A stretch of DNA of 64,000 nucleotides from Rugalucina vietnamica (Eukaryota > Mollusca > Bivalvia > Lucinida > Lucinidae), in contig OZ024879.1 in assembly GCA_964017185.1 (NCBI GenBank), forward strand, positions 24,927,456-24,991,455. Reading direction: 5' to 3'. Shown here in pieces: positions 11,026 through 63,762 of the stretch. The notes under the pieces are model-generated. The model searched no databases. It saw only the letters and a list, made by a program, of their open reading frames with translations, and was not told the DNA's origin. The stretch's first letter is position 1. Each line of letters begins with the position of its first letter. Position numbers and translations under genes: made by a program.

Positions 11026-11219
11026 CTGGTGGAGACACGGTGCTTATGAACAAATGTGTTTCATCAAATACACAGAGGATCTTACACGAGTGGTCATTTT
11101 ATATGAAATTTATTAAACGAGCCTTCGGCGAGAAGCCCTTCGGGCTTCACAGACATTAAAACAGCCTAATGTTTTTCATCATCCAGTGAAAGCTAAAATC
11201 TGAATTTCAATCCTTAAAT

Positions 11220-21930: not shown

Positions 21931-21954
21931 CTTCTTATAATATATTTGCTAAAA

Positions 21955-28800: not shown

Positions 28801-29379
28801 AACAATATTAGAGTCAATAATATAATCTTCATGCAGGGGTAAATAATTGTCATCATCATTCATAATAAAATCATCTTCAGTACCTGTCCTAGCATTAAAA
28901 TCTCCCATTAACATCACTGACCCTAATTTCTTGTATTTTGCAATGTCTGTTTCTACCATTTCTAAAAAATCAATGTTTTGGTCAATATAATAAGAGGAAT
29001 ATTGTGGTGGTATATACACAAAACATACATATAGGTCCTTATCAAAACCAAAAAAGTTTTTATCCATTAAAAGCCATTGATATTCAGAACATGTAGATGA
29101 CAAATATTTTACACCTTTTCTTAAATTTCTTTTTATTAATATGCCTAAGCCACCATAATGCTGTTTACCCTTTGAAGATTTTCTTTCTATGTAATGTAGA
29201 ATATGTTCACTAAAATTGCAAGTACTGATGTCACTTTTTACTTCAGCTAAACAAATAATGTCACATTTTTCAAGACTTCTATTGAATAAAATGTCTTTTG
29301 ATTTATCAGCCTGTTTGGAAATTAACTTATTTATATTCCAGTAACCAATGTTTATAGATGATTGATGTCTATTCGTCAT
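25891..29379 (-). CDS. LINE ORF2: APE endonuclease and reverse transcriptase
   Basis: A 1162-residue protein that nicks target DNA and reverse-transcribes the element RNA at the nick. The APE-type endonuclease is at about residues 8-275 (N17, E46, GDFNAR with D160/N162, SVIDYGL with D245, SDH at 270-272). The RT is at about 560-830: SNYRGITIM, IDFRKAFDS (D653), GVRQGDTLSPNLF, YADD (751-754), and KTKTIVF. A C-terminal zinc-knuckle-like CX2CX9HX4C reads CKNCHTNEVESEMHFLLQC. The full reading frame is intact and all catalytic residues are present, so the protein could be active. The start ATG overlaps the ORF1 stop as TAATG, suggesting termination-reinitiation rather than an independent start. 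Codon use is A/T-rich like the surroundings. Confidence 0.93.
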   Translation of the reverse strand: MTNRHQSSINIGYWNINKLISKQADKSKDILFNRSLEKCDIICLAEVKSDISTCNFSEHILHYIERKSSKGKQHYGGLGILIKRNLRKGVKYLSSTCSEYQWLLMDKNFFGFDKDLYVCFVYIPPQYSSYYIDQNIDFLEMVETDIAKYKKLGSVMLMGDFNARTGTEDDFIMNDDDNYLPLHEDYIIDSNIVHRNSKDTKVCSRGRELLEICISSRLRILNGRTFGDLHGKYTSYQYNGNSVIDYGLVSEEQMSNVLYFHVDEPILRLSDHSKISVRIFANFFQDEHKQNLKDFPEQFKWDDFSPQLFYNELQSGEIMDRLHDVLDMQISNTVEVNDIVDKFSEILYSAGNKCLRKKKIRKSKFKRNKKWFDLDLLKMRKTLDFKGKQFAKYPNDPIVRGSFYRYRKLYSKLCKFKRKQYKANLIDQLNNLFEKDPKAYWSLLNELKDDKKSTTETMTSSEEMSEHFSNLNTLPSKFQERAKEVEELLKQAERSQSFNKLDFSITESEITKSLSALKNGKSSGLDCICNEMLKCGKSILLPCILKIFNAILQVGVYPQAWKSGYINPIYKSGLKSDPSNYRGITIMSCLGKLFNSILNARLDNFLNENRVISKTQIGFQKQARTSDHMFVLRTLIEKYTYQSKARLFTCFIDFRKAFDSVLHQALFLKLQNLGISGLFYNIVKNMYLGNKLRIRIGNSLTEEFESELGVRQGDTLSPNLFKIFINDLPRIFDEDCDAVSLGDCNLNCLMYADDVILLSKSEIGLQNCLEKLEAYCKRWCLDININKTKTIVFNKTGKLLPYKFYFDGELIENVKTYKYLGVVFAASGSFSHARTDLYKRALKAFFKLKSIFGDLSPNIDTSLHIFDHTVKPILLYGSEIWGLCSPSSTALKNETEFKLEKAYSNYECEKLTTKYYKYVLGVHKKSTNLAVYGELGRTPYFIDIIGGVIKYFKRIQNMESDSLLAQSLNTSKELFNNGKQSWYTGLSFIFDQLNIDVNMSVHEIKSLLIKRSMGYWEKQIKENAVDKQGKLRTYFCFKPKFKKEIYLRIIQNREVRKCYTEFRISAHQLAIERGRYKNVKSTERICKNCHTNEVESEMHFLLQCQKYQEERNKLYLYLKSTYKNFNILTDENKFIWLLTNENEDVIQKLSNFIFTCLEIRKQ

Positions 29380-31757: not shown

Positions 31758-31984
31758 TACAGTTGCGGTGGTCGGATATTCACTGATTTTTAAGAAACGG
31801 CTAAGAGTTCGAAATTCAAACGTCGTCGGCTATAAGGGACACTTCTTCCTCACCTGACTGTATATTATTTTCAATAATCACGACCTTGTAGACCTTGAAT
31901 TTGGTTAAAATCTTCTAATTATTCTTGACAATTTCAAAATTCATTGTTTACATACGAACGTCACTTCCGTTAATCTTATAATAT

Positions 31985-43541: not shown

Positions 43542-44610
43542 TACGGTCTTGTTAGAATCCACGTAGACAGTTGATCTCATTTTCTACGACATGCGTCTTG
43601 ACTGATGCTTAGTAGAGGGGATACAACCATACCATGCATTGTATAGTAAGAAGATTTCAAGTAACTAATCATGCCACCGCTGGTGTATATGGGTCATTAT
43701 CAAAAATGGAGCAATCCAGAAAGGCAAAACGAAAAAAAAATAATTGTCCATTTTTTCTTTTTTAATGGGATAGTTTTATTAACAGGGGCATCTAGAATAT
43801 AGAAATAAAATATGCCGAGTTTAACTGAACAGATATTGCACCAGCATTAATCAATTGTATGGTACCCTTGAAAAAATATCAGTGCTGTCGCGAACAAACT
43901 TTCTTGCGTATAACGCTCATTTGATAAGACTTTCCCAATCTGTAAGTGGGGGCATATATAACTTGTCACGAACAATAGTTCACACAAGCCTTAAATACTT
44001 TCAATGAATTAACGAGAAAGGGAGCTTCAGTGAAAATACTGTGATTTGTTCTGTTTCTGAAACGCTTTATTTTTGTATACATTATCTTGTAGGATTAAAT
44101 TAAAAATAAGTTCTGCTAAACGTTTACTATCTCAGTATCATTACATACCAAAAGCAATTACTTTTATATGATGCGTTTTGAGTATTTTAAATAATTATGA
44201 CCGTGACAGCACTGATATCGTGACAGCACTGATGCTGTCGTGACAGCACTGATAATTATCCGATCTCGAATTTTTATTCCAATGTGTTCGGAAATAATTA
44301 ACTTCTGACCATTTACCGATGAGCTTAGGGGCAGTGACTCACTTAAGGTCGCACGGCTTATGCTCTAACCAGGGACACCTTTGCGTAGATCCAATGCTCT
44401 TACAAAGCACGTTCGCTTCACGCAAACCAAACGCGATGTAACACGTAAAGCGCAGTAGAAGCGCTATTCATCTTATCACTGTAAGCTGCAGCATGAGAAA
44501 ATGTGTCTTTCGACCAGGTCTAAGACAACCAGGATTGTTCACGACAAAAGACCGCATTAAATTTGGGACCCTATCACGGGTTTTAGGGAGCTGGGTAGCA
44601 GGGCCGTTTT
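43542..44610. other. Non-coding stretch with a small triplication
   Basis: At 44,202-44,252 the word CGTGACAGCACTGAT occurs three times. No gene. Confidence 0.5.
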
Positions 44611-44819
44611 GTTTGTTTGTGTTTGTGTTGGGGCTTAACGTCCCAGTCAACAATTTTTCAGTCATGTCGGGACGGGGCCAACGCTTCCTGGGTTTAACCG
44701 ATACTGTAGGGAGTCAATGTGTCTTGCCCAAGGACACATCACGGTGACGCCTGTGGGGATCGAACCCAGGACCTCTCGATTCGGAGTCCGACGCTCTACC
44801 ACTACGCCACCGCGCTCCC
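44611..44819 (-). mobile_element. Complete tRNA-derived SINE with target duplication
   Basis: On the minus strand a tRNA-like head (44,819 down to about 44,747) has GTGGCGTAGTGGTAGAGCG (A box), CTCCGAA in the anticodon loop (CCG, Arg) and GGTTCGATCCC (B box). The body CACCGTGATGTGTCCTTGGG and the tail GACTGGGACGTTAAGCCCC follow, with a TTTG-rich end. Direct repeats CAGGGCCGTTTT (44,599-44,610) and CAGGGCCATTTT (44,820-44,831) flank it, differing at one base, consistent with LINE-mediated insertion. Confidence 0.85.
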
Positions 44820-45250
44820 CAGGGCCATTTTAGCTTGGGAAAGCTGGAAAACAATTGAAGGGAATTGGGGATTACTAGGAGAGAACACTTGGTTTTAGGA
44901 TGATGGGAGCAAGGAAAAGATTTTTAGGGAGAAAGGTCATTTTTCTTTTAGTGAGCTTGGAACTAATACCTCCTTGGATGGGCCTAAAATTTAGGTTAAC
45001 TTTCAGCTGAGCTGCACACTTTGCTTTTACATACATCCCATTAAATCCCACTTTTATGTACATGTAGTGGGGTAAACAGGGTAAAATTGGGTATACAATG
45101 TTACTTCTTTTTGTTTCTTAATTTTGACCCTAGGCGGTTCACAATCAGATAATTTTTTTCTTCAATTTTTAAAGCTAAAAAAATCTCTGTATATTGCATA
45201 GGTAACACATTTTCGTGATGGTATGCATCATACAAACACACTAAAAGACA

Positions 45251-45260
45251 CATGCGTCTG
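45251..45260. repeat. Left target-site duplication candidate of the 18.5-kb unit
   Basis: CATGCGTCTG directly precedes the terminal TAGGGGACC. The right flank has CATGCGTCAG. The first 8 bases are identical. Confidence 0.6.
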
Positions 45261-46234
45261 TAGGGGACCGGAATGTCCGCGGACCGGAATGTCCGCAAAA
45301 AAAATAAGTTGTTTTAGATATGTATTAAAACATAAATAATCGTTAAATAAGTTTATCAAATGCAAAAATTCGGGGAAATAATTTTCATAAAAACGAAAAA
45401 AGAACTTAGAAAAAATTCCTTGCGGACATTCCGGGACGCCCCAAAGGGACCGAAATGTCCGCAGGCCCGAAATGTCCGTAAATGTTGTTTTCTCTTTAAA
45501 CCGACAAAATACCCATCGATTATGCCTTATTAATACGATAAAACAAGTAAATAATAAACATAATGACCATTTGACCCACAAACCACGAGTGTCTGATTAT
45601 AATAAAACATGTTTGACCGTTTGGTCACAATTTCTTCCATGATTACACAATTGTCATTCTGTCGTTCAAATTATTGCATTTCAACGGTAAATTTTAACTC
45701 TTAAGTGAGTTTACATGACATTATTCACGGTAATCAACAGTTTAAATAGCTATAGTTTCTAAAAAAAAAATCTTGCGGGCATCCCGGACCATTTAAACCG
45801 TCTGCAATGTCTGCAACATTTAAATTTATACTAAATGAGGAAAACGGTTAATGATTAAAACGCATGTCATATTATTGCGAAAGTTGAAGCAACTAATCAT
45901 AAACTAATTGTAAATTATGGTCCACAACGCCTATTATACAACAGATCAGATCACTTTGGCCCCGACTGATTTCTATTATTGATAACAAATACATTATCTC
46001 TAAGATATGCTTTGCTTGTGTTTCGACGAACAGTCGGAACCCTTTTTAGTTTACATCCTTGTAATTCTTACGTAACAAATGCATTTCAACCGGACATCTT
46101 CAGTTTACATGACAATATTTATAGTTTTTAACAGATATAATAGTAATAGTAATAGTTTCAATAAAAATGTTGCGGACCATTTTGGTCGTCCAGCAATGTC
46201 CGCAACATTTAAAGTTTATCACAGGTCTGATCAC
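45261..46234 (+). repeat. Left TIR of the 18.5-kb element
   Basis: Contains four stations of a GC-rich near-palindrome, GCGGACATTCCGG ... ccGNAATGTCCGC, at about 45,268, 45,419, 45,774 and 46,169 in otherwise AT-rich DNA. These could be transposase-binding or hairpin sites. Confidence 0.8.
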
Positions 46235-46483
46235 TCAATCTTACTAAAAGTGTCATTTTACTTAGTATAAATACCAAACTGTTCATTCAATTTTTCCTTA
46301 TCTCTGTTTTTGGAGTGGACATTTCTTTCTGGTTGCGCCATTTCCTGATCATTACCTTCTTTTACCTTTATAAAGCTTCTCTAATTCTGGTTCCGGGAAC
46401 GGACATTATTATTGTTACTATTATTTCTTGATTAATGATAATGCTACGAATGCGATCCGGCTTAGAGAGTGTGCTGGTCGTGT
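46235..46483 (+). repeat. Inner inverted repeat B (left)
   Basis: Pairs in inverse with 60,377-60,635 from ACTCAATCTTACT to GAGAGTGTGCTGGTC. Its GTTTTTGGAGTGGACATTTC and GCGCCATTTCCTGATC parts resemble the end of dispersed family D. Confidence 0.75.
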
Positions 46484-47699
46484 TTATTGTCTCTGTCTCA
46501 ATCAAAGCAGGCGGCCGCCGTGGCCGAGTGGAAAAAAAAAGAAGCAATCAAAGCATAAAAAGGGCGAATGCGCAAATTATAAAAAGTTCAGGTGACGTGA
46601 TTTTGCGTTTCTTTTTTTGTTCAGTATATATTTGTCTTAGTTATTTACAAGGGGGGGGGGGGGGTGTTACATCAATGAAGTTAATAACATTATTTATTTC
46701 CATAGAATGTCACCTTTGAAAGCTTATTAGGGTGGTAAATACATGTATGGACAAAATTTCGCTTCATATGAACGCTACACAAGGGGTTGCAAAGTGGGCG
46801 GAGCTCACACACAGGTACACACGCTATACAAAGGGTTGCAAAGTGGGCGGGGCTTTAAAAGACGCAGGTAGCTGGCTACTTTCAGGGGTCATAAAACTGA
46901 CCATATTCGTGTGCCATAATTGGTTGCAATAGACATCTACTTATTTATTAGATTTGGACATCCAAAAAATACTTTTCATATGCTAGAAACAAGCAATGAA
47001 AACTATTCCAAAATATTTACTATTCCAATTTTGGATTTTATTCTGAATAAAATGTCTAATTTATACGCGCACCTTTGTACAAACAGGGACAGAATAAAAC
47101 GCTGAAATTTCTGCTGAATTCAGCAACTGTCTGATCAGCGGAAATATACTAAAACGCTGAAATACTGAACTGCTTATTTTTTGTTGAACACCACTTTTGA
47201 TCGTTGTTACAGGTTAAGCAAATGCAAATTGTGAATAATGTATTTGATAACATTCGTCAGTGCTTATGCAGTGTCTTTGTCCGTGTGCGACCATACCATT
47301 TAGAAACTTGACAGTCGTTTGCTGATGTGCTGATTTGAAATAAATTAGCTAGTATGATGTATTGAAATACATCAAACGTATTCAAACTGTTGTTATGTTT
47401 TGGGTATAGCTCCTGCAGCTTCATGCATGTGGGCAGTTTGATACGCTATCGCGCAGTCTGATCACATCACCGTAATTCAAGATAATTACATTTAGCTTAG
47501 CTTAGAAAGAAATCAAACCTTTCCACAGTGGCTATGGTTTCATATGATGTGTTGTGCTCTACTTGGTCAGAAGTCTCACTAGAGAAAAGTGTTTATCGTA
47601 GAATGTGCAGTCCGGTCTGGGTTCGATTAGAAATGCATGTACATACCAATTTAAGAAATTGAATAAGTGCAAGACGGGCCTTCCAGATATGGCAGTTCT
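46484..47699. other. Non-coding stretch with small repeats
   Basis: CCGTGGCCGAGTGG near 46,518 is a tRNA-like head fragment. A G-run is near 46,650. GGGTTGCAAAGTGGGCGG occurs at about 46,780 and 46,831. No gene. Confidence 0.45.
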
Positions 47700-47852
47700 A
47701 AAACACGTTTTTTTTACACACGCAAGCACGCCCAAGCACGCACGCACACTCGTATGAACATATGTGTACATACAGTCATGAATAAGCAAACATGCATGCA
47801 TGCGAGCGCACACACGATCGCCCTTTCGAATGTACAGACATGTGCATTTGCG

Positions 47853-47883
<31 letters not shown>

Positions 47884-47983
47884 ATGCGGGCATGCACGCA
47901 TGCACACACTCGTGCACTCGCACGAACATACGAGCATGCGTGATGCATATATCGAACATATAAGCATTTATTTATACATACAA
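47700..47983. repeat. Alternating purine-pyrimidine CA/GC-rich tract
   Basis: Runs such as CGCGCGCGCACACACACACA with GCATGCATGC-type words. Frames rich in C, V, H or T across it are artefacts. Such DNA can adopt Z-form. Confidence 0.85.
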
Positions 47984-48284
47984 GTAGTACCCCCGCCACT
48001 TTGCAGGCAGTTATTCAAGATTACGCAACATTACGTAATAATAACGCCGTAGAGGCGTTAATTGGTTATAATTAATTCTAGGAACGAATCAATATTGACT
48101 CGGCGCGAAGCGCCGAGAAGGAGCCGCGCCACGGGAAGACGCGCGCGCGAAAAACGTAGGATATGCGAAGTCTGATCAGGCGCAGCCTGATCAGTGCCCC
48201 GCTAAACTGTTGTCAGCACGTAGCATGTATCGCGAAAAAAAAGGTTCATTACGGAGAAAACTCTCATTTACATAAATAAGGGGT

Positions 48285-48460
48285 TCGATCCCCCATTTGT
48301 GTCACCGTTCTGCGTCCTCGAGCAAGAAGCATTAACTGCCTCATGAGTACTGACTAAAACCCAGGAAGCGGTGCCCCCCCCCCCCCCCCCACCCCTGGTC
48401 CCGACATGACTGAAAATATGATCGCTGGGACGTTAAACCGCATTACAAACGAACGAACAA
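48285..48460 (+). mobile_element. SINE fragment in left palindrome arm
   Basis: GGGGTTCGATCCCCC (B box), then TGTCACCGTTCTGCGTCCTC, a C-run, and GGTCCCGACATGACTGAAAA with GCTGGGACGTTAAACCGC. Related to the SINE at 44,611-44,819, but lacking a clear tRNA 5' half. Confidence 0.75.
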
Positions 48461-48954
48461 ACATACGAATAAGAGAATGGACAGACGAGACATAATTTTA
48501 GGGTATGTCATTTTAAGCCGATTTGTACAGAAAAAGACCCCTATTAATAATAAGACCGATACTCAGGCTCTTGCAGCTTCATTATATTAGCAGGCGATAA
48601 TTGTTCATATTTAGCTACGGTCAACTATTATTTTGGCGCTTTCACTGCGAAACCAGACAACAGCCGCGTCAATCCTAAAAGGAAAAAAACTATCAAACAG
48701 AAAAATGTAAGTACGCACCAACAAGAATGACAGGAACAGTTTTTAGCGATATATATATTAATGTACAGTACACGCACGTTTGATACCGGTTACCTAGAGC
48801 ACCATAGTCGGCGTTTAAGGAAGGCACATTTTGTCTTTAGTCGCTATCTAAGGCACTATTTTTAACCGTCTGTCATCGTTTGCCCCGGTTGCACAGAATT
48901 AGATGCAGAAATTATTTTGCCGAACTTATTAATTATTTAGTAAAAACCGATACT

Positions 48955-49227
48955 TTATGCAACCAAAACGCGATCCTCCGGCTTCGTTTCATAAGGAGGC
49001 GATAATTGATCATATTTAGCCAAAATTATATCCAGGATCGAACTATAATTTGGCGGTTTGCGATGCCAGTTAATAGCCGCGTCGTACCAAGAAACCGTTT
49101 CAGTTAAGAAGACCATCTTATACTGGAAGAAACCGCATTTAATGCGAGACTTTTTCGTATTATCTAAGTAGTGATAAATAAAACGCAAGTCGGTAGTGCA
49201 TGTACCTACATATTTCGCACACATCAT
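48955..49227 (-). CDS. Short conserved frame in palindrome arm (left copy), function unknown
   Basis: A 90-residue frame, MMCAKYVGTCTTDLRFIYHY then LDNTKKSRIKCGFF, AAINWHRKPPNYSS and ILAKYDQLSPPYE. The mirror copy at 51,102-51,362 keeps the frame despite a 30-bp deletion, and differs at the stop. A diverged repeat of the DAA..W segment lies about 400 bp further out in each arm (near 48,690). I do not recognise it. It may be an exon remnant rather than an expressed gene. Confidence 0.3.
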   Translation of the reverse strand: MMCAKYVGTCTTDLRFIYHYLDNTKKSRIKCGFFQYKMVFLTETVSWYDAAINWHRKPPNYSSILDIILAKYDQLSPPYETKPEDRVLVA

Positions 49228-50019
49228 TTATAGATACGTTTTAAACGAAAAGAAATACCTACGAATACAATTTTATCGCGATTGCACATCATCTTTTGAT
49301 GCGCTTAGGCTCATTGTCTAATTAATATCCAGACCCAGTAATGTTATTTGCATTATAACTTACATGTCTCGTCTGAAATAATCCAGTTGGACATTATTTG
49401 GTTTATCTATAAATTAAGCTACTTTAACCTCTGCGGCGTACTCTTAGAATTATGCAGAATATTTCTGAAGTGGCAATAATCGCCTTTAATCTGCTTACGA
49501 TTCCTAATTGGACTATCTTAGTTTGTTCATCCCATCAAATATTTCGATGCAAATATTTCAGTGCATCTCTCATTTTTCTGTGATCGTAGGATGCTAATTT
49601 CATGAACAAAAAAATCAGCACACCTTCATTTTAACTGCCAAAAAAATTTGGAATTTGTATTTTCTATGAAAATGGGTGCCAATTTCATGAACAAAAATAA
49701 AACGTACGATGTACGATTTTATGGGACCATGATCAGCACACCTTCAATGTTGTTGGTGGTGATGATGGTGGTGGTGTAAATGTGGTGGTAAGGTAGTGGT
49801 GGTGGTGGTGGTGGTGGTAGTGGCAGGGTGGTGGTGACATCATGTACCTAACGAACGTCCTATACAGCGCAAATATATGTTGCGCCATAGACCTGCAATC
49901 CTTGTGTCAACACGCTAAAGGCTCTAGATGGTGGTTTAAATGTGGTGGTGATGATGGTGTAAATTTCGTGGTGGTGTTAATGTCGTGGTGGTGGTTTAAA
50001 GGTGGTGGTGGTGTAAATG

Positions 50020-50050
<31 letters not shown>

Positions 50051-50281
50051 GGTGGTGTAAATGTGGCGGTAGTGTAAATGTGGTCATGGTGATGGTGGTG
50101 GTGGTAATAAGGAGGTGGTGGTGGTGGTAACCGGTTACCACCACCACCACCACCACCACCTCACCACCACCACCACCACCACCACCTCCACCTTACCACC
50201 ACCACCACCACCACCACCACCACCTCCTTATTACCACCACCACCATCACCATGACCACATTTACACTACCGCCACATTTAC

Positions 50282-50312
<31 letters not shown>

Positions 50313-51101
50313 CATTTACACCACCACCACCTTTAAACCACCACCACGACATTAACACCACCACGAAATTTACACCATCATCACCACCACATTTAAACCA
50401 CCATCTAGAGCCTTTAGCGTGTTGACACAAGGATTGCAGGTCTATGGCGCAACATATATTTGCGCTGTATAGGACGTTCGTTAGGTACATGATGTCACCA
50501 CCACCCTGCCACTACCACCACCACCACCACCACTACCTTACCACCACATTTACACCACCACCATCATCACCACCAACAACATTGAAGGTGTGCTGATCAT
50601 GGTCCCATAAAATCGTACATCGTACGTTTTATTTTTGTTCATGAAATTGGCACCCATTTTCATAGAAAATACAAATTCCAAAATTTTTTGGCAATTAAAA
50701 TGAAGGTGTGCTGATTTTTTTGTTCATGAAATTAGCATCCTACGATCACAGAAAAATGAGAGATGCACTGAAATATTTGCATCGAAATATTTGATGGGAT
50801 GAACAAACTAAGATAGTCCAATTAGGAATCGTAAGCAGATTAAAGGCGATTATTGCCACTTCAGAAATATTCTGCATAATTCTAAGAGTACGCCGCAGAG
50901 GTTAAAGTAGCTTAATTTATAGATAAACCAAATAATGTCCAACTGGATTATTTCAGACGAGACATGTAAGTTATAATGCAAATAACATTACTGGGTCTGG
51001 ATATTAATTAGACAATGAGCCTAAGCGCATCAAAAGATGATGTGCAATCGCGATAAAATTGTATTCGTAGGTATTTCTTTTCGTTTAAAACGTATCTAAA
51101 A

Positions 51102-51362
51102 ATGATGTGTGCGAAATATGTAGGTACATGCACTACCGACTTGCGTTTTATTTATCACTACTTAGATAATACGAAAAAGTCTCGCATTAAATGCAGTTTC
51201 TTCAAGTATAAGATGGTCTTCTTAACTGAAACGGTTTCTTGTTACGACGCGGCTATTTCGATCCTGGATATAATTTTGGCTAAATATGATCAATTATCGC
51301 CTCCTTATGAAACGAAGCCGGAGGATCGCGTTTTGGTTGCAAAAAGTATCGGTTTTTACTAA
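51102..51362 (+). CDS. Short conserved frame in palindrome arm (right copy), function unknown
   Basis: Mirror image of 49,227-48,955 with ten codons (NWHRKPPNYS) deleted in frame and six extra C-terminal codons because the left-copy stop is not present. The protein level match is close to identical elsewhere, which may only reflect the youth of the palindrome. Confidence 0.3.
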   Translation: MMCAKYVGTCTTDLRFIYHYLDNTKKSRIKCSFFKYKMVFLTETVSCYDAAISILDIILAKYDQLSPPYETKPEDRVLVAKSIGFY

Positions 51363-51829
51363 ATAATTAATAAGTTCGGCAAAATAATTTCTGCATCTAA
51401 TTCTGTGCAACCGGGGCAAACGATGACAGACGGTTAAAAAGAGTGCCTTAGATAGCGACTAAAGACAAAATGTGCCTTCCTTAAACGCCGACTATGGTGC
51501 TCTAGGTAACCGGTATAAAACGTGCGTGTACTGTACATTAATATATATATCGCTAAAAACTGTTCCTGTCATTCTTGTTGGTGCGTACTTACATTTTTCT
51601 GTTTGATAGTTTTTTCCTTTTAGGATTGACGCGGCTGTTGTCTGGTTTCGCAGTGAAAGCGCCAAAATAATAGTTGACCGTAGCTAAGTATGAACAATTA
51701 TCGCCTGCTAATATAATGAAGCTGCAAGAGCCTGAGTATCGGTCTTATTATTAATAGGGGTCTTTTTCTGTACAAATCGGCTTAAAATGACATACCCTAA
51801 AATTATGTCTCGTCTGTCCATTCTCTTAT

Positions 51830-52012
51830 TCGTATGTTTGTTCGTTCGTTTGTAATGCGGTTTAACGTCCCAGCGATCATATTTTCAGTCATGTCGGGAC
51901 AAGGGGGGGCACCGCTTCCTGGGTTTTAGTCAGTACTCATGAGGCAGTTAATGCTTCTTGCTCGAGGACGCAGAACGGTGACACAAATGGGGGATCGAAC
52001 CCCTTATTTATG
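51830..52012 (-). mobile_element. SINE fragment in right palindrome arm
   Basis: Reverse complement of 48,285-48,460. The C-run differs in length between the arms (G-run about 7 here against about 19 C there), which shows post-duplication slippage or assembly noise. Confidence 0.75.
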
Positions 52013-52439
52013 TAAATGAGAGTTTTCTCCGTAATGAACCTTTTTTTTTCGCGATACATGCTACGTGCTGACAACAATTTAGCGGGGCACTGATCAGGCT
52101 GCGCCTGATCAGACTTCGCATATCCTACGTTTCAAGTTCGCGCGCGCGTCTTCCCGTGGCGCGGCTCCTTCTCGGCGCTTCGCGCCGAGTCAATATTGAT
52201 TCGTTCCTAGAATTAATTATAACCAATTAACGCCTCTACGGCGTTATTATTACGTAATGTTGCGTAATCTTGAATAACTGTCTGCAAAGTGGCGGGGGTA
52301 CTACTCATACATATACAGAAACGTCCTTGTGCAGTACAAACCCAAGCATAGACAGACGTACGGACGGACGGTATGGTCAACATACATGGAAGTTAGAAGT
52401 AAGAACTTTAAAGTTAGAAATAAGAAGTTAGAAGTTAGA

Positions 52440-52760
52440 GATACAGAATAACCTCCCGAGCACGGGCGCAGGCACGCGTGAAGGCACGCGCGCGCCAGCT
52501 CGCATGCACACACATGTGCATTTGCGCATGCATTTGCCAATGCCAAACACATACAGACATACAGACATGATCGCGCGGGCCCATGCATACTAACACTCGT
52601 ACACTCGCACGAACATATGTACATTAGAAATAAGAAGTAAGAAGTTAAATTAAGGAATAACCTGGTCTGTTACACTTGTCAATGCACATGCACGCCCGAG
52701 CACGGACGCATGCGTGCACGTATGCACACACGCGCATACTCGCACTTGTGACTAAAAATG
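52440..52760. repeat. Second alternating purine-pyrimidine tract
   Basis: GCACGCGCGCGCCAGCTCGC and CATGTGCATTTGCGCATGCA resemble 47,720-47,960, so the palindrome lies within what may have been one such tract. A (AGAAGTTAGAAATA)-type repeat is present at 52,390-52,440 and again near 52,625. Confidence 0.65.
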
Positions 52761-52799
52761 ATGATTAGGCGCTACACAATAAGTTATGATTAGTTTATT

Positions 52800-52963
52800 G
52801 GTTTGTCGAACCATGATACATGTACATAGAAATGTTGACTTGGACGTTAAACACTCCCCCACAAACACACTCACATACACACTGTGCGGTATTTTTTTTA
52901 CTAGTAAACTATTCTGATTCTGATTCTGTTTCTGAACCATTATGTCGAGTGATCATTAAACAC

Positions 52964-53014
<51 letters not shown>

Positions 53015-53078
53015 AATGAATGAATGAATGAATGAATGAATGAATGAATGAATGAATGAATGAATGAATGAATGAACG
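52800..53078 (-). mobile_element. SINE-type fragment with compound (AAAG)n(AATG)n tract
   Basis: On the minus strand the words GAATCAGAATCAGAATAGTT and TACTAG are followed by GTGTGTATGTGAG and GTTTAACGTCCAAGTCAAC. The same succession is at 56,285-56,400 and 61,820-61,945. The tract 52,966-53,076 is about 12 AAAG then 14 AATG units. Confidence 0.65.
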
Positions 53079-53381
53079 GAAACGATTGTTTCAAGCATAC
53101 AAACATGTAGCGTTTTCTTTTCAAATAAATGAATGAAGTGAGAAGTTCTTTTCTTCTTAAGTCTACTTTTTACTCTTTTTCGGAAACACATTAATTTATA
53201 AGATTTCATAGAATTTTTAAATTTCTTAGAAAAAGGTAGCGTTTATGTCCCCCAAGGTAGTCGCTTATCACAAGGGGGCTGTTTAGTGCAATCAGTTATG
53301 ACACACTTTTGATTAATGGCCTACAGTAATCGCCGATGGTAATTTCAAGCATTGCACTTTGCGCCACCCTTATTCTCTCAA

Positions 53382-53427
53382 CCAATCCAATTACAGATGT
53401 TTTATACCCTAACCCACCTTATATAAA
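53382..53427 (+). promoter_or_regulatory. CCAAT plus TATA promoter candidate
   Basis: CCAATCCAAT at 53,382-53,391 and TTATATAAA at 53,419-53,427, about 30 bp apart. A GGGCGGGGC box is at about 53,446, and a direct duplication of GTTTACCTGAATATCTGCAT occurs at 53,455 and 53,478. It precedes the only GC-rich frame in the region. Confidence 0.5.
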
Positions 53428-53566
53428 CAATCACTGAATTCGGTGGGCGGGGCGTTTACCTGAATATCTGCATATAGTTTACCTGAATATCTGCATATAA
53501 ATCAATTTCACCAGTCATGTCATTAAAGGTCAACATATCACTTTCGTCCTAGACGTTGAAGGGTGA

Positions 53567-54433
53567 ACATCGACTCACTGATCACCAACCCACAACCTAG
53601 AGATAGAGACTCAGACAGATCTTCTAGAGCTGCCTGCCATCCTTGTCACAGCGCTCAAGGCATACCACTTCTCCGGGAAGCCAGTCTGGCGGATCGGTGA
53701 AGGCTTAGAGCATGTGAAGGTAGAGCTTACGTTTAAGCTGCCTACCGTGAAAGAAAAACCTGTAATGTTAACAGAGAAAGAAAAACCTGTAATGTTACCG
53801 ACCAGACGAGAGAAGGCCAAATGCAGGAAGCCCAAGCCTGCACCTTCTGCTCCCATCATGCCGACGACGCAGTGTCCACCACCAGCGACACCAACACTAC
53901 CGTCACCAACGCCAGCCACCATTGTCCGACGACAAGTGACAGCGCCATCGCCATCACCAACGACACCACCAGTCACCAAGAAACCACGTCGAGAACCGTT
54001 GCTACCGACGCCCACCAGCGCACCCACTCCTCAGCCAGAGACCAAGCCTACGCCAGCTGCTCCACGCCGACCATTCGCCGGAGAATTCAAGGTCAGAAAG
54101 GTCAAGTCAGAGATTCTCCGTACCAACTACACCAACCATCGAGACAAGACCAACTACGTCCGTGAGTACTGCCACGAGAAGGGGAGAGCGTCGATCCAGG
54201 CTCTACGACCGAAGACCGGCCCTCGCCACACCCACTACCTAGTCAGCGACTTCTACGCCTACGACTCCACCGACTACTACCTACTGACCTACAAAGATAC
54301 TCCGGAGTATGACCACTACAAACGACTTTGGCAACAGGGCGAGAAACTATCCAGCGAGTTTGTCAACGACTGGAACTACTTCTGCACCACGGTCAACATC
54401 CTCGAGCTACGACCACCAGAAGCCACGTCGTGA
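53567..54433 (+). CDS. GC-rich orphan protein with proline-rich middle, start uncertain
   Basis: The frame is open from 53,567 (after TGA 53,564-53,566) to TGA at 54,431-54,433, about 288 codons. There is no ATG before 53,765, so the true start is an upstream exon joined at an acceptor such as CCTAG near 53,554 or 53,600, a non-ATG start, or VMLTEK. The N-terminus reads LLELPAILVTALKAYHFSGK then PVWRIGEGLEHVKVELTFKL. The middle is P/T/S-rich with basic patches (KKPRRE). The C-terminus, RTNYTNHRDKTNYVREYCHE, HTHYLVSDFYAYDSTDYYLL and DWNYFCTTVNILEL, is Tyr-rich and looks globular. Third codon positions are C-rich, unlike its AT-rich surroundings. EKEKPVML is duplicated. I do not recognise it. 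It may be cargo or an element protein of the 18.5-kb unit. Confidence 0.55.
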
Positions 54434-55165
54434 TCGCTGCCAGCACCTGCCTCTGCCTCCTGAACCTCGAAACTTCATTGCTAAGCCGCTAGCAAATGTC
54501 CGAGATCACTGTTCACATGGATTGCAGCGTCCGTAGCTGTTTAATCATGTGCAGTTTCAAAACTAGGTCATTTCACCGACCTAGCACAGCCATTAAGCGC
54601 GGCCCTGAATGAGAGCAATCTGATTGGATATCTCATTTGACCTACTTTTGCTCTCGAGCAAGATAGTGAAATCACTGATTTGCAGCCGAATTGGCATCGA
54701 TTTCCTATCTATTCTTATGCTCACTTTTCGACCATGGCGTTCAAAATTCTAAAAAGAAGTGCTCCTCCACTTTTTCTGGCTTGACTTGCATTGTCCGCTT
54801 ACATTGGGCACCGGCGAACAGCGCGATTGGCTTTTTGCTGTCACCGCCACGATTTGCAGCCCAGGAGCACTTAACCTTCGTCCTTGAGGTGGAATACTGG
54901 ATTAAGTCCGTTCAGCCCGGCATGACGAAAAACTGCCACTTTCTACTACTACTACTACTACTCTTTTATTTAAAGAAATAAAAGGTTTATTTATTTATTA
55001 TTTCACTCAACAACAGCAAACTGCAACATGGTATGTTTCAGGTATAGGTTTGAATTATAAAGGAATGCTGCCACACGTCCTTTTAAAAATGCACGGGGTC
55101 AAAATAACGCTTTATACAAATCACATCATTTTTGATGCGTTACTAAAGTTTTATGAATTAACAAG
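54434..55165. other. Presumed 3' flank of the orphan gene
   Basis: GACCTAG/CTAGGTC inverted words near 54,564-54,582. (CTA)n is at about 54,944-54,961. AATAAA at 54,977-54,982 is a possible polyadenylation signal about 540 bp after the stop. Confidence 0.4.
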
Positions 55166-55405
55166 TGAGCCACCTCGTTGGAAAACCAACAATGTGGGTT
55201 TTTTTCGAACAGGTCCGACACAAACCGGCCTGTACAAGCACAGAAAAGAGCTAGAAGCTTGAAATTTCGGATTTTAGTAGAAGAGGAATTTTACTATCCG
55301 AGTCGCGAAAACAAAGGCGCTGATCAGCTTCGCGGTTACCACGAAGCTGATCTGCGTCTTTGTTTTCGCCTATGCAGATTGTTGGTTTTCCCATGAGACG
55401 GCTCA
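55166..55405. mobile_element. MITE family T, copy 5
   Basis: TGAGCCACCTCGTTGGAAAA to CATGAGACGGCTCA with the full CAAAGGCGCTGATCAGCTTC hairpin. It most resembles copy 1 (both end in GATTGTTGGTTTTCCCATGA). Confidence 0.8.
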
Positions 55406-55869
55406 AGTTTAAAGTGTGGAGACCAAGTCTTTAGATATAATTGCATTGCTGATTGCTTCATTTAGTTAAAATTAATTCGAATTTTCCTGCTCGAACAACA
55501 TACTGGGGTGATGTTTTCAGGCCCAACATTAACAAATTGGTTACACCTGGAAAATCACATTACAAATTGTATGCCATTTTTCTTTCGAATCGATGAGGTT
55601 TTAAGCAGCCAATGTTGCCACACATTTCAATCGAAGCCCCAAACGATTCACAATAAAAACGTTCGATACATTTAAAGGAAAAGCTTTAATGAATGGTTAA
55701 AATTTACTATTTGATTATTTTATTTATTTTTTTTCAAAAGGAGATAATGTCAATGCGAAGCAACTTTGCAAAATCCTAACCGAATGTCGGAGCGAGATAG
55801 TATTTTTGACGGACAATAAGTGGTCTTTGGCACAGCCTGTTCAAATCGTGTGAAAACGGCAGTCTTGTA

Positions 55870-56000
55870 CTTAATGAAGTTTCAAACGTGAATTAATTTA
55901 CATCGACCGCTTTACATACATTATTATGTCCATGTTCCGTATTGCACAGGCTTCAATTGTAAATTTAGCCCTTGGTCGTTTGAAACATATTAGCTCATAA
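55870..56000 (+). repeat. Repeat family G, short copy
   Basis: TTACATCGACCGCTTTACAT, TCCGTATTGCACAGGCTTCA and GCTCATAATCACCTAGA match 56,455-56,565 and 62,035-62,140. Confidence 0.75.
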
Positions 56001-56109
56001 TCACCTAGATAAGAATGTATAATCGCGCAAATGTAGAGTGAAAGTGGTAAAACATTCGCTCAAACGTATGCATACAAAAGTCGCGCAAAAGCCTTCGCGC
56101 AAACGTATT

Positions 56110-56318
56110 GGTCGCTTATGTTTAGTGGTTAATTGACATACATGTATGTATGTCTTATGCCACGAATGTTTGTTTCATATGCCCTTCACGAAATATATAA
56201 ATTAAACATTAACTTATTGGTTAACGTCCAAGTCAACAATTTTCATTCATGCCGTGATAAAGCATAACGTTGCCATGCCCAGAATCAGAATATTTTACTG
56301 GTGAAACAATACCGCACC

Positions 56319-56359
<41 letters not shown>

Positions 56360-56700
56360 CGCCTAATGATCAATTTTTAGTCATGCCGTGATGGAGCTAC
56401 AAATCTTCCAACTTGGTGCGAAAATTACAATTTTGTGCTTTTAAGGTTTCACAAGTGAATTTATTTATATCGACCGGTTTACATGCATTATGTCTATACT
56501 CCGTATTGCACAGTAAATAGCCTTGGGTCGTTTAAACCATATGAGCTCATAATCACCTAGAATAGATACGCATTTGATATGGGATATTGTACCTGGATTG
56601 TTTATTAGGGGTGATAGTGAGGGGTATTCCCCTGTTACGAATACACAGAGTCGGATATTGCACCGACTAAGAACTATTCCGCGTACCTTTCCGATACACA
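56110..56700 (+). repeat. Repeat family G, long direct copy 1
   Basis: From TTAATTGACATACATGTATG through a (GT)n tract (56,325-56,358), ATCGACCGGTTTACATGCAT, GGGATATTGTACCTGGATTG and ACACAGAGTCGGATATTGCA. The same series recurs at 61,610-62,290. Confidence 0.8.
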
Positions 56701-59700
56701 AAATACCCAGGGAGCCAAAAGTCTCTATCTCGCAAAAAAAAAGGTTGGAGGTGACATCTCCTGCTATAGTTGTTTTGAATGCATTTTTGGATAGCTCTGA
56801 CCTTCCAAAAGAAGGTCTAAGTGGACTGCTCTGGAAATTTTTTTGGCGTGATGCTTTAATCAGACGGTATTTAGACGTACTATTTGTTATACAGCTGAAA
56901 TTCAGTACACAACTATATTACGAACAGTCATATTTGTAGTATGTTTCTTCATTATCGTATACTATCCTGATGCCATTTAATCTTGTCTGATTGCAGCTGA
57001 GTATGTCTTACCCATGTATAAAGCTGTAAATGTGTCATATGAGTAAACTATGTGTCATCTTAAGGCATTGAATTACATTACCCCACCCACTTAATTTATA
57101 TGTAAAACTTTATGTGCAATTATGAGAATCATATTTTTATCAGTACATTTTTATCAATAAATGTTGATGTCATCATTATTTTTATAACAATTTTTATTGC
57201 TTTTTCCTCTGTTTACATCCTTTTCAAAGTTTATTTACTCATGTAGAGACAACACAATGATTGGTAAATGCGGAAAAAAAAGTCTGCAAAATTAAAACTT
57301 GGCTTCTCATATTGCCATTTGAAGTGTTTGGGGCGGGTTATCTATAGGACTTACCTTGTACCCTTAGAACAAATGCTCATGGTGCCATTTTGGTCAGAGG
57401 ATCACTTTTATGCCCATTTGTGTCACATAAAATCACAGTGCTCACCCTCAACCCTAATAAGCAGTTACCCCTATATTACCACATGTATCTTGGCTACTGA
57501 TAGACATAGAGAGCAGAAATAAGTATCAAATGATTGTTTTGACAATGCTCTATAACCATGTAATAAGATATAACATCAAAATGACTTCCTGGTGTTTGAA
57601 TATCAATGAGAACTTTATATATTAGAAAAAAAAATCACATAAAAATGGAGTATACCAGCACAATTGCTTATTACACCTCAGCAATCAAAAGATCTAGACA
57701 GCTCAAAATTGGTATCAAATGATTGCTGTGACAATGTTCTATAACCATATAATAAGATATATAAACAAGCTGGCTATCTTAATCTCAATTATTAAAGAGA
57801 ACTTTAGATATTAGAGAAAAATAACAGATAAATGAAGGGGGTATACCAACAACATTGCTGATATCTCAGCAACCAAAAATTCTAGAGAGCTGAAATTTAT
57901 ATCAAATGATTGTTATGATAAAGTTCGATAATAATGTGATAAAATACAGACATACTTTGACTTTCTTGGTGTTCAAATATTAATAAGAACTTTCAGTATT
58001 AGAGAAAAATCACAGAACAATGGAGGGGGTATACCTACAGAAACGTTTATAGCTCAGCAACCAAAAGCCATAGAGAGCTGAAATTGGTAACAAATAATTG
58101 CTACGACAACCACAAAATATGATACATAAATAATCAGACTTTCGTGCTGTTCGAATATTGATGAAAACTTAAAATATTAGAGAAAAATCGCAGACAATGG
58201 AGGGGGTATACCTACGGAAATGTTTATATCTCAGCAACCAAAAGCCGTAGAGAGCAGAAATTTGTATCAAATGATTGTTATGACTATATTCTATAATCAA
58301 GATATATAAATAAGCTGACTATCTTGCTGCTCCAATATTTAAGAAAACTTAAGATATAAGAGAAAAATCATTGCCAAACGAAGGGGGTATACCAATAAAA
58401 TTGAAAATATCTCAGTGACCAAAAGCTCTAGAGAGCTGAAATTGGTTTCAAATCATTGCTATAATAATGTTCTATAATCATGTTATAAGACGCATAAATA
58501 ATACTACTTTCTTGTTGTTGGAATATTGATGAGAACTTTAAATATAAGATAAAAATCTCAGAAAAACAGAAGGGGTATACCAATGGAAACGTATATATCT
58601 CAGCTACCAAAAGCCATAGAGAGCTTAAAATGGTATCAAATAATTGCTATGACAATATTCTATAATCATGTAATAAGATACATTAACAAGCTGACTTTCT
58701 TGTTGGTCAAATATTAAGAAAACTTAAGATATAAGAGAAAAAATCATTGGCAAACGAAGGGGGTATACCAATAAAATTGAAAATATCTCAGTGACCAAAA
58801 GCTCTAAAGAGCTGAAATTGGTTTCAAATCATTGCTATAATAATGTTCTATAATCTTATGATAAGAACCATAAATAATACTACTTTCTTGTTGTTGGAAT
58901 ATTGAAAAGGACTTTAAATATTAGATAAAAATCTCAGAAAACATAGAGGGGGTATACCAATGAAAACATGTATATCTCAGCAACCAAAAGCTATAGAGAG
59001 CTGAAATTGGTATCAAATAATTGCTATGACAATATTCTATAATCATGTAATAAGATACATTAACAAGCTGACTTTTTTGTTGCTCAAATATTTAAGACAA
59101 CTTAAGATATAAGAGAAAAATCACTGGCAAACGAAGGGGGTATACCAATAAAACTGCTAATTTCTCAGTGACCAAATGCTCCAGAGGGCTGAAATTGGTA
59201 CCAAATGATTGCTAGGATAACATTCTATAACCATGTGCTAAGACACACAAACAATCTGACTTACTTGTTTTTCCAATATTGATAAAAACTTTAAATATAA
59301 GAGAAAAATCGCGGAAACATGGAGGGGATATACCGACAAAATGTTTTATAACTCGGCAATCAAATGTCCTTGAGAGCTGAAATTGGCATCAAATGATTGC
59401 CATGATAATGTTCTATAATCAAATGATAAGATAAATGAATATTTTAAATATCTTGTTATTTAAATATTGATGATAACTTAAAATATTAGATACAAATCAA
59501 ACAAACATAGAGGGAGTATACCAACAGAAACGTTTATATCTCAGCAACCAAATATCCTTGAGAGCTGAACTTGGTATCAAATGATTGGTATGACAATAAT
59601 GAACTACTCACTAGATACAGTTGTAGTATTTCATAGCCGCTTGCTTAAAGGTGTGCATGATCCAGTCTATGGAACAATGAGAACTTACATCTGACATTTT

Positions 59701-60262
59701 ATAGGAAACGGTAATCTGACCATGGACTTGGTCATGATAATGATGAACAGATGTAAATTCATAAAGAAACTGAATGACAAAAATAAACATAAATACTTGT
59801 ATAAATAATGTTTAGAGCACATCCCATATTCATTTGTTCTTCAATGTCTCACGAATCAATATGCATTTATTTAAATTTCATGATTCATATTATTATGTAA
59901 GTGGGTGGGGTAATTCAACATCATAAATACTAAAACAACAGCTGCAAAAGTATGAATTAAAGAATATAGTAAGATTACTTCTTTATCTGTGATTCCTAGC
60001 ATTGCTCTAGACTAGAAAATTAAGCAGTTTATGATCTGAAACACAAAGGATATGTTCATATATCTAGAAAACGTTTGTTATACGTAGGCAGCTCAAATAG
60101 CATGAAACAATGTGTAATTTAACCACCGCGCCAAAAAAATTTCGTGAGCAGTTCACCCAGGCCTTCAATAGGATGGCAAAGCCTAACCAAAATTGTATTC
60201 AAACCAACTATAGCAGGTGATGTCACCTCCTCTCCCCAAAACAGGGCTTGGCTCCCTGGGTA
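56700..60262. mobile_element. 3.6-kb inverted-repeat element carrying a satellite core
   Basis: TACCCAGGGAGCCA..GAGGTGACATC..CTGCTATAGTTG..TTTTTTTGGCG at 56,703-56,850 is matched in inverse at 60,120-60,262. TTGAATTAC..TACCCCACCCACTTA at 57,068-57,098 is matched in inverse at 59,898-59,925. Between lies an 11-copy tandem array. Non-autonomous elements with satellite cores are well known in bivalves. The class here is uncertain. Confidence 0.6.
57490..59600. repeat. 187-bp tandem satellite, about 11 copies
   Basis: The word GGGGGTATACC recurs at about 57,650 (variant), 57,839, 58,026, 58,205, 58,386, 58,571, 58,760, 58,948, 59,137, 59,325 and 59,515, spaced 179-190 bp. Each is followed by CTCAGCAACCAAAAG, AGAGCTGAAATTGGTATCAA and TTCTATAATCATG. 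Units are clearly diverged, so the array is not freshly amplified. No coding sense. Confidence 0.9.
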
Positions 60263-60376
60263 AATACACTCACGGAGGCGGCATTGGTTTTGCAGCCACG
60301 AAGCATTAAATTCCCCTTATTTCCCATGTAACGTTTTCGATATCCAAAGTCCATGAATGTGAATATGGGAAATGTT

Positions 60377-60635
60377 CCATAAACGTGACCAGCACACTCT
60401 CTCAGCCGGATTATCATTAATCAAGAAATAATAGTAACAATAATAAAGTCCGTTCCTGGAACCAGATTAGAGAAGCTTTATAAAGATAAAAATAGGTAAT
60501 GATCAGGAAATGGTGCAACCAGAAAGAAATGTCCACTCCAAAAACAGAGATGAGGAAAAATTGAATTAACAGTTTGGTATTTATACTAAGTAAAATGACA
60601 CTTTGAGTAAGATTGAGTGATAAGAAAATCGTCAT
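60377..60635 (-). repeat. Inner inverted repeat B (right)
   Basis: Inverse of 46,235-46,483. It continues at its outer side into CCCATATTCACATTC and CCCATGTAACGTTTTCGAT (60,315-60,370), which also occur directly at 62,330-62,385. Confidence 0.7.
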
Positions 60636-61609
60636 TCAGAAAACAAATACGTGTGTTCACACCTCGTATTTATCACAAACAAATGCCTATGTTCACACCT
60701 AGAAGATTAGGTTGATAACACTATCATTTTACAAGTAGAAACCTTTACTTAGAGAGAAGTGCATGTACTCGCACGAACTATCATGTCCTAGAATGCTAGA
60801 ACATTGTGTTAAACAATTCTGCAGCTTTCAAAACCACACAGAAACTGATATATTTTTTCAGTTTTACCAGCAGTGTTTTTGTCAAGTTGGGACTAGATAA
60901 CGAAAAGAGGCTCTTTTTGCGGAAAGATGTGAAAAGAGGTGTTTGAATGCCAAAATAGTCGTTTATGATGCATATGATGCAATATAAATTAGTTATTTCA
61001 GAGAGTACGATAGTAGCAGCATGCCATAATGCAAGAATTTCTGAAATATTAAATGTTGGCAAATAGGTGCGATGGCTTAGTGACGGGGCATCTTTAATTA
61101 CTAGGTATGACTTATCACGGTAGGTGTTAGCTGGCACGCGTATATTGCTCATGACACCTTGGTTAATATACCCATTACAGATTATCATCGATATCGTGAT
61201 TTTTTAAAGAAGCAGTATTACTATTTTATCTTAAATAAATGGAAAAATTGGAATTCACGCATATTGTGTCTCTATTTAATGGTAAAATGCCTCTTTTCAC
61301 ATCTTTTCGCCTCTTTTCGCGAAAAAGCCTCTTTTCGCTATCTAGACCTACCGTTTTCAATGAATTATATCACATATGGACAAATTAAATATTCAGATGG
61401 AAATATGGACCCGCGCCAAGTCCGGTCACGAGAAATTGCTAGGCTGACTATATGATTACGGGTTAACTACCCCAGAATGTCTGAGCCTACCCAGGAAAAG
61501 TGGTTTTAGGCAATTCCATTAAAACATATAAGCATCAGTATATAAAATAAACTTAACTTATTGTCAGTCAACTATTTTCAGTCATGCCGTGAAGCAGATA
61601 ATGCTTCGC
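60636..61609. other. Non-coding stretch
   Basis: CTCTTTTCGC/GCGAAAAGAG words near 60,900-60,940 and 61,290-61,340 are inverted to each other. A family E fragment is at about 61,437-61,540. No gene. Confidence 0.45.
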
Positions 61610-61860
61610 TATCGTCGCTATGCACATGTTTAATGGTTAATTGACATATGTACGTCTTATGCCACGCATGTTTGTTTCATATGCCTTTCACGAAATATAT
61701 AAAATAAACTTAACTTATTGGTTAACGTCCTAGTCAACTATTTTCAGTCATGCCGTTATGAAGATACTGCGTCGCTTTAACGTGGCCGTGCCCATGTTAT
61801 ATGATTCCTCGACATAATGGTTCAGAATCAGAATAGTTTACTGGTGAAACAATACCGCAA

Positions 61861-61915
<55 letters not shown>

Positions 61916-62290
61916 TGTGTGTGGCGCCTAATCGTCAATTTTAAGTCATGCCGTGATGGAGCTACAAATCTTCCGACTAACTTGGTGCGAAAATGCCAAT
62001 TTTGTGCTTTTGATGAAATTACACAAGTGAATTTATTTATATCGACCGCTTTACATGCATTATGTCTATGTTCCGTATTGCACAGGCTTCAACTGTAAAT
62101 AGCCCCGGGTCGTTTGAACCATATGAGCTCATGATCACCTATGATGTGCATTTGAATTTGATATGGGATATTGTACCTGGATTGTTTATTAGGGGTGATA
62201 ATGACAGGTATTCCCCCTGCTACGAATACACAGAGTCGGATATTGCACCGACTAAGAGCTATTCCGCTTACCTTTTCAATACATTAATAC
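61610..62290 (+). repeat. Repeat family G, long direct copy 2
   Basis: Direct match to 56,110-56,700, including a (GT)n tract at 61,864-61,913. The pair brackets the satellite element but shows no PBS, polypurine tract or gag-pol, so they are not LTRs of a complete retrotransposon. Confidence 0.8.
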
Positions 62291-62767
62291 AAACACTGGT
62301 CCCGCAGCCACTCAGCATTTAATTTCCCTTATTTCCCATGTAACGTTTTCGATAACCAAAGTTCATGTATGTGAATATGGGACATTGTCAATTAATTGTA
62401 TATGATTTAGTTTGAAGACTTAAAAGTGTTTCAAACAGTTTCAAACAGTTCCTGATCTTTGCATACTTGTACCTTTTGATGTAATGCTACCGTTTCCCCC
62501 CTAATTGCGTTTTTTTTTTTAATATACAGAGACTAATATTGGATAGGCATTGAACAAACGTAATAAAAGTTACAAGAATGGAATTCTCTGAAAATTTATG
62601 AGTACTTATGACCCGTGACCCGGAATGTCATCAACATTTTATGTTGACAAATAATATTTAAAACCGTTAATAACTATTAATTAAGACAGGCCCGACTGTC
62701 TATTGAAACACAAGAAATATATATCTTAAATATGATGTATTCAAATAACATAACATAACAACAAAGT

Positions 62768-63752
62768 GATCAGATCTGTGATAAACTTTAAATCTTGCGG
62801 ACATTGCTGGGCGGCCAAAATGGACCGGAATGTCCGCAACATTATTATTGAAACTATCCCTATTATATCTGTTAAAAACTATAAATATTGTCATGTTAAC
62901 TCATTGAAGATGTCCGGTTGAAATGCATTTGTTACGTAAGAATTACAAGGGTGTAAACTAAAAGGGTTCCGACTGTTCGTTGAAACACAAGCAAAGCATA
63001 TCTTAAAGATAATGCTATCAATAATTTGCTGTCAATAATAAAAATCAGTGGGGACCAAAGTCATCGGATCTGTTTATAATAGGCATTGTGGACCATAATT
63101 TACATTTAGTTTATGATTAGTTGCTTCAACTTTCGCAATAATATGCCATGCGTTTTAATCATTAACCGTTTTCCTCATTTAGTATAAATTTTAAATGTTG
63201 CGGACATTGCGGGGCGGTCTAAATGGTCAGGGATGCCCGCAAGATTTTTTATTGAAACTATAGTTATTAAAACTGTTAATTACTATGAATTATGTGATGT
63301 AAACTCACTTAAGAGTTAAAATTTACAGTTGAAATGCAATAATTTAAACGACAGAATTACAATTGTGTAAACATGGAAGAAATTGTGACCAAACGGTCAA
63401 ACATGTTTTATTATAATCAGACACTCGTGGTTTGTGGGTCAAATGGTCATTATGTTTAAAATTTACTTGTTTTATCGCATTGATAAAGCATAATCGATGG
63501 GTATTATATCGGTTTAAAGAGAAAACAACATTTACGGACATTTCGGGCCTGCGGACATTTCGGTCCCTTTGGGGCGTCCCGGAATGTCCGCAAGGAATTT
63601 TTTCTAAGTTCTTTTTTTGTTTTTATGAAAATTATTTCCCAGAATTTTTGCATTTAATAGACTTATTTAACGATTATTTATGTTTTAATACATATTTAAA
63701 ACAACTTAATTTTTTTGCGGACATTCCGGGCCGCGGACATTCCGGTCCCCTA
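62768..63752 (-). repeat. Right TIR of the 18.5-kb element
   Basis: Inverse of 45,261-46,234 with the same GCGGACATTCCGG-type stations at about 62,797, 63,199, 63,535 and 63,717. The terminus ends CCGGTCCCCTA. Confidence 0.8.
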
Positions 63753-63762
63753 CATGCGTCAG
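63753..63762. repeat. Right target-site duplication candidate
   Basis: CATGCGTCAG follows the terminal CCCCTA directly. Compare CATGCGTCTG at 45,251. Confidence 0.6.

Follow-up and report, generated by a model that had tools for sequence, protein, structure and literature searches.

The window analysed here is a stretch of 64,000 nucleotides from the bivalve Rugalucina vietnamica (contig OZ024879.1, hereafter C11; C11:24927456-24991455), and it contains an element of 18,496 bp, at 45259-63754 once the ends are corrected, that is one copy of a multicopy family. With reasonable though far from complete confidence we read this family as large non-autonomous DNA transposons that depend on a transposase supplied in trans, probably one of integrase type (rve/IS3/IS481-like), and that carry Foldback-like repetitive inverted repeats. 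Our verdict is that it is a known kind of element in a new variant form, unless its transposase should turn out to represent a new lineage. A sequence-only reading of the window had proposed a large mobile element at this place, and the proposal is borne out by multiple copies, convergent pairs of terminal inverted repeats (TIRs), exact target duplications and sites without the element.

The two ends of the window copy show inverted homology between 45259-46235 and 63754-62765, the alignment, of 1000 columns with gaps counted, being 91.4% identical. The left TIR (45259-46235, plus strand) starts with TGTAGGGGACCGGAATGTCCGC and the right TIR (62765-63754, minus strand) ends with CCCCTACA; both termini begin TGTAGGGGACC, at 45259 and 63754, and TAGGGGACCGGAATGTCCGC is present at both ends. 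The TIRs of about 1 kb described earlier are real at both ends, although the figure of 974/985 given for them is right as an extent and too high as an identity. The termini lie 2 bases outside the TAGGGG from which the sequence-only reading started, and the two additional homologous bases on each side make them TG...CA. Because the inverted homology starts two bases further out, the target-site duplication is an exact 6 bp, TGCGTC, at 45253-45258 and 63755-63760. The duplication of 8 or 10 bp first proposed is rejected both on this placement of the ends and on the 6-bp repeats found across other pairs, and the right-hand CATGCGTC is not pure flank, its 'CA' being the end of the element. Herein lies a trap, as an apparent duplication of 8-10 bp turns into one of 6 bp after the terminal TG..CA has been placed, and this shifts the likely superfamily. 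The inverted repeat also exceeds its first-reported length, a further segment of about 260 bp (46226-46487, plus strand) recurring inverted at 60625-60379 (minus strand) with 89.3% identity. The left and right arms of the window copy differ by about 9%, but its left arm is 97% identical to the left arm of a copy on C12, and the divergence of the arms therefore appears to predate the spread of these two copies.

The genome searched comprises 1.09 Gb in 47 contigs. When up to 3 mismatches are allowed the 22-bp terminus TGTAGGGGACCGGAATGTCCGC is found at 214 sites (112+102), against 1 (0+1) for the reversed sequence that served as control, and the left 1 kb has at least 54 matches, found in the best 40 of 228 candidates scored. 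Among the 100 ends listed, all of them exact, there are 33 convergent neighbouring pairs less than 100 kb apart and no divergent ones; the listed pairs are 1.1-32.7 kb long, with one doubtful pair of 92.7 kb in addition, and copy sizes overall run from 288 bp to 33 kb. The sequence-only reading had suggested a search for further inverted TIR pairs with direct repeats of their own, and this yielded the 33 convergent pairs; among 25 facing pairs whose flanks were read, 23 showed an exact 6-bp repeat. Duplications were counted in 24 pairs (17 of the 33 listed and 7 others, window copy included), and 23 of these have exactly 6 bp. Between one pair and another the 6-mers agree in 48 of 506 comparisons, so a target preference alone is insufficient to explain the matches within pairs. 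It would seem extremely improbable that the window holds no transposon at all but an inverted segmental duplication flanked by repeats through chance; the long arms, and the failure to find a transposase in the scanned open reading frames (ORFs), would suit such a duplication, but the element-free sites, the 214 ends with 33 pairs in convergent orientation, and the duplication of 6-7 bp in each of 24 pairs do not, and these counts have already refuted it.

The duplicated target tends to a CpG-centred palindrome, GACGTC/RACGTY. In the 23 exact 6-bp sites position 2 is A in 20, position 3 is C in all 23, position 4 is G in 22 and position 5 is T in 19. A CpG is central in 22 of them, 16 read NACGTN, 20 agree with RACGTY at five or more of its six positions and 9 agree with it throughout. 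Of seven ends read that have no partner (L029, L030, L031, L043, L044, L057 and L058) five are flanked by NACGTN. A literature search for RACGTY in connection with transposons found no mention of the word in the papers it listed. GACGTC, which serves the family as target more often than any other word, also abounds in a repeat elsewhere in the window, at 10197-10683.

Repeat copies that run uninterrupted through the insertion point bear out the boundaries of two insertions and, less exactly, those of a third. For the insertion on C6 such a copy is found in L030 (96%, GACGTC), for that on C7 it lies in the window itself at 44608-44821 (92%, GACGCC), and for that on C5 it is in L027 (81%), with CCCCCC for CCCCTC and an adjoining 1-base gap. 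Repeat copies of the C7 site in L040 and L053 differ at the insertion point, and for C2:24.3 and C8:19.5 there are weaker spanning matches (70-75%) in which the junction could not be placed exactly. Large units of the family appear to have moved recently, since the ends of a copy of 32.7 kb (C1:70620731) and one of 22.7 kb (C2:32485381) are 99.3% and 99.4% identical over 1.5 kb at different sites, with the distinct duplications GACGTC and AACGTC.

The TIRs are internally repetitive. A 13-bp motif, CCGGAATGTCCGC, matches the window at 16 sites when no more than 2 mismatches are allowed, where 0.39 would be expected, seven of them in the left TIR (45268-46203), eight in the right TIR and one at 62620, just interior to the right TIR. 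Its layout is similar in many of the 35 ends examined, with two direct copies at the tip and inverted pairs near 165/192, 515/543 and 915/943, the clusters in the arms being spaced about 350-400 bp apart; some of the 35 ends retain the tip copies alone. Judged from its sequence this is likely a transposase-binding array. In the mechanism that we propose, a transposase encoded elsewhere would recognise the 22-bp terminus and would probably also contact the 13-bp motif repeated along the ~1-kb TIRs; both ends would be joined to a GACGTC-like target with cuts staggered by 6 bp, giving the 6-bp duplications. The window copy is a core of ~9.2 kb enlarged later by three insertions.

By analogy with described systems, the action in trans may be ascribed to an integrase-type DDE enzyme of the rve/IS3/IS481 group, an assignment made by comparing the family's termini (TG..CA, with the TGTNR pattern), its stagger of 6 bp and its palindromic target with what is described for Ginger1, Ginger2 and GingerRoot. 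According to PMC2836005, Ginger elements have TGTNR termini and prefer short palindromes, RTATAY for Ginger2 and CCGG for Ginger1, and the family, with its TGTAG...CTACA ends and short palindromic target, resembles both. It differs in that Ginger elements duplicate 4-5 bp and encode an integrase-like transposase, with TIRs of about 40-270 bp in Ginger1, whereas the family has 6 bp, TIRs of ~1 kb and no transposase found in the scanned parts. IS3EU/GingerRoot elements likewise make 6-bp duplications (23 of 24 pairs in the family, none in L047), and GingerRoot according to PMC10045372 has TA..TA or occasionally TG..CA ends; the family has TG..CA ends where most of those elements have TA..TA, and no IS3-like DDE transposase was found in its scanned parts, whereas autonomous IS3EU/GingerRoot members encode their transposase. 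It is conceivable, though doubtful, that the family is an undescribed superfamily or major lineage of integrase-type transposons, characterised by the RACGTY target, 6-bp duplications and arrays of enzyme-binding motifs on kilobase TIRs, and able to move 20-30 kb or more (possibly 93 kb) together with passengers.

The sequence-only reading took its duplication of 8-10 bp as a pointer to hAT or Mutator-like elements, a pointer not supported by the flanks of the 25 facing pairs, 23 of which show 6 bp. Duplications of hAT elements are 8 bp (range 5-8) and those of Mutator/MULE elements typically 8-11 bp, or 8-10 bp in typical Mutator, whereas the family has 6 bp in 23 of 24 pairs, 7 bp in one and no 8-bp case. 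The length of the duplication disfavours hAT and typical Mutator, and taken alone it leaves hAT variants of 5-6 bp and the range of IS256/MuDR. We think it quite unlikely that the family belongs, in non-autonomous form, to a non-integrase superfamily with a 6-7 bp duplication and a preferred target, Dada for example, or is a Mutator- or P-type Foldback of unusual duplication length. The single 7-bp duplication fits this, and length is not decisive against Mutator, as IS256/MuDR are jointly given 4-10 bp in PMC10045372. Foldback and Galileo, as portrayed in PMC3573991, have long inverted repeats with internal repeats, vary greatly in length, and are non-autonomous in the copies with the longest TIRs; the long, internally repetitive TIRs of the family are a likeness in favour. 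Galileo, however, belongs to the P superfamily, with 7-bp duplications and TIRs of up to ~1.26 kb (PMC3573991), against 6 bp in 23 of 24 pairs (7 bp in 1 of 24) and clusters of a 13-bp motif in the family.

A further explanation, to which we assign a similarly low probability, is that of a non-autonomous Polinton/Maverick derivative driven by a Polinton integrase. Polintons have long TIRs, a size of about 15-20 kb and AG..TC termini; the size range fits, but the ends of the family are TG..CA, its copies span 288 bp to 33 kb, of which those of 288 bp and 1.1 kb would be unusual for Polintons as would the repetitive TIRs, and no protein-primed polymerase B, integrase or capsid gene was found in the ORFs scanned (10 from the window element and 128 from six loci). 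The genome may nevertheless harbour a Polinton-like enzyme, given that the first of the inserts nested in the window copy has AG..CT ends and is flanked by a duplication of 6 bp. Duplications of 6 bp, which the family shares, are typical of Polintons according to PMC10045372.

Returning to non-autonomous units moved by an integrase-type enzyme, the earlier statement that no transposase lies inside holds for the parts scanned, namely 10 of the 56 stop-to-stop ORFs (at least 60 aa) of the window element and parts of other copies. None of these 10 had a Pfam match above the cut-off, nor was there any family at E<=0.01 in 128 ORFs of six loci (L017, L018, L062, L063, L068 and L069), a scan that left out low-complexity ORFs. 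As a control, 8 ORFs of long interspersed nuclear elements (LINEs) or presumed LINEs were scanned and 5 were recognised through endonuclease, reverse transcriptase (RT) or RNase H domains; the remaining three, which drew no match, comprise the 777-aa ORF that stands first in the LINE of the C12 copy and two frames in L018, one of them (257 aa) endonuclease-like by our reading. As 3 of 8 control ORFs were unrecognised, the scan can miss short or diverged pieces. LINE-type sequence lies inside some copies (C12, C1:41.3 and C2:32.5), and four 2-kb samples of the 22.7-kb copy on C2 contain core-like pieces and LINE fragments, with no integrase seen in them. A 19-base piece of the element end gave 0 matches against viral contigs, and there were 0 matches to RNA families at gathering score.

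A search of the genome for the rve_3 domain identified at least 139 places, found in the best 150 of 1874 candidates scored. Many of these are in frames of more than 1,000 aa, as would be expected of long terminal repeat retrotransposons. Others stand alone, in frames of 384 aa (C11:38201214, C13:28753831 and C3:67302329) and 348 aa (C13:28772357), and are candidates for the missing transposase, as leads only; if ends of the type TGTAGGGG bound elements around the 384-aa frames, those would be the partner.

Several observations weigh against our reading. No autonomous partner was found among the parts scanned and the rve_3 places listed, and none of the 70 rve_3 places listed on C1-C8 falls between the two ends of a listed pair, with a single one coming within 120 kb of any listed end. 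Furthermore, for 34 of the 100 ends in the list no partner is listed, and there are two neighbours less than 100 kb apart that share one orientation; several of those 34 have as partner an end with mismatches, as in L042 (a 288-bp pair), L052 (a 1.1-kb pair) and C8:52115761 with L010. The duplication count covers 17 of the 33 listed pairs, the other 16 (among them the 92.7-kb pair, read later) lying outside it, and most copies on C9-C17 lie outside the sequences read. One pair, C1:58950279, has a duplication of 7 bp (CCACGTA), and the 25th facing pair, in L047, has none. Its ends, at 569-1522 of L047, face each other 954 bp apart and the first base of the left end is changed; it is perhaps a chimeric or partly deleted copy. 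The ends of the 92.7-kb pair (C8:41752817-41845548; L072 and L073) face each other with GACGTC on both sides, and may be either a giant member or two unrelated ends, GACGTC being the commonest target.

Comparison with other copies resolves the window copy into a core of ~9.16 kb, within the range of the 9-10-kb pairs, and three later insertions. In four of six pairs of 4.6-7.3 kb the centre matches this core; in the other two (L068 and L069) it is of different sequence, in which no domain was recognised. Insert 1 (47983-52305) is a 4.3-kb palindrome-like unit with ends AGTAGTACCCCC...GGGGGTACTACT and arms of ~2.1 kb that are 96% identical, flanked by CATACA at 47977-47982 and 52306-52311; its site is empty in L020 and L026. 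Its AG..CT ends, which we take to be Polinton-like, and its 6-bp duplication are accompanied by no long ORF that we could see. Insert 2 (53529-54969, plus strand) is retroelement-like and flanked by TTAAAG (53523-53528 and 54970-54975); it has (CTA)n close to the 3' end, and L013 and L026 lack it at the corresponding site. The 3' part (54457-54969, ~510 bp) is a 90% match to the 3' end of the LINE in the C12 copy. That LINE, near the site of insert 2, is a separate event, as its duplication differs (~12 bp). At a single site in the C12 copy (L020-L022) there stand two LINEs in tandem, ~98% identical to each other, with target words of ~12 bp. Insert 3, whose edges at 56704-60262 are placed to within a few bases, is bounded by TACCCAGGGAGCC...GGCTCCCTGGGTA and encloses a 188-bp tandem array of 11 copies (57507-59597); the site of the insert is empty in L013 and L022.

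The GC-rich ORF of 239 aa (53714-54433, plus strand), which the sequence-only reading took for an orphan gene carried by the element, lies inside insert 2, whose 3' part is LINE-matching. As the site of this insert is empty in other copies, the ORF is rejected as cargo of the family. It has no Pfam match above the cut-off and no relative in PHROGs or the PDB, and its 8 pattern matches to viral contigs were none of them confirmed.

Other repeats are present in the window. A LINE at 25894-31829 has a first ORF (29382-31829, minus strand) that carries RNase H and, just below its cut-off, a PHD-finger match, upstream of an endonuclease-RT ORF, an order which is unusual for a LINE. At 1876-6032 a GC-rich 57-bp tandem repeat occurs in 73 copies that are 97% alike and open in several frames on both strands. 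There are also two inverted pairs, one of ~950 bp (7767-8717 and 11215-12155; 88% identical, 4.4 kb overall) and one that is 97% identical (6578-7143 and 21378-21943; about 15 kb overall).

For the biology of the family, the CpG at the centre of the target palindrome raises the possibility, open to test, of a connection with methylation or with proteins binding CRE-like sites (TGACGTCA). Finally, the near-identical ends of the 22.7- and 32.7-kb copies suggest the transport of DNA far beyond the usual size of a DNA transposon, passengers included.

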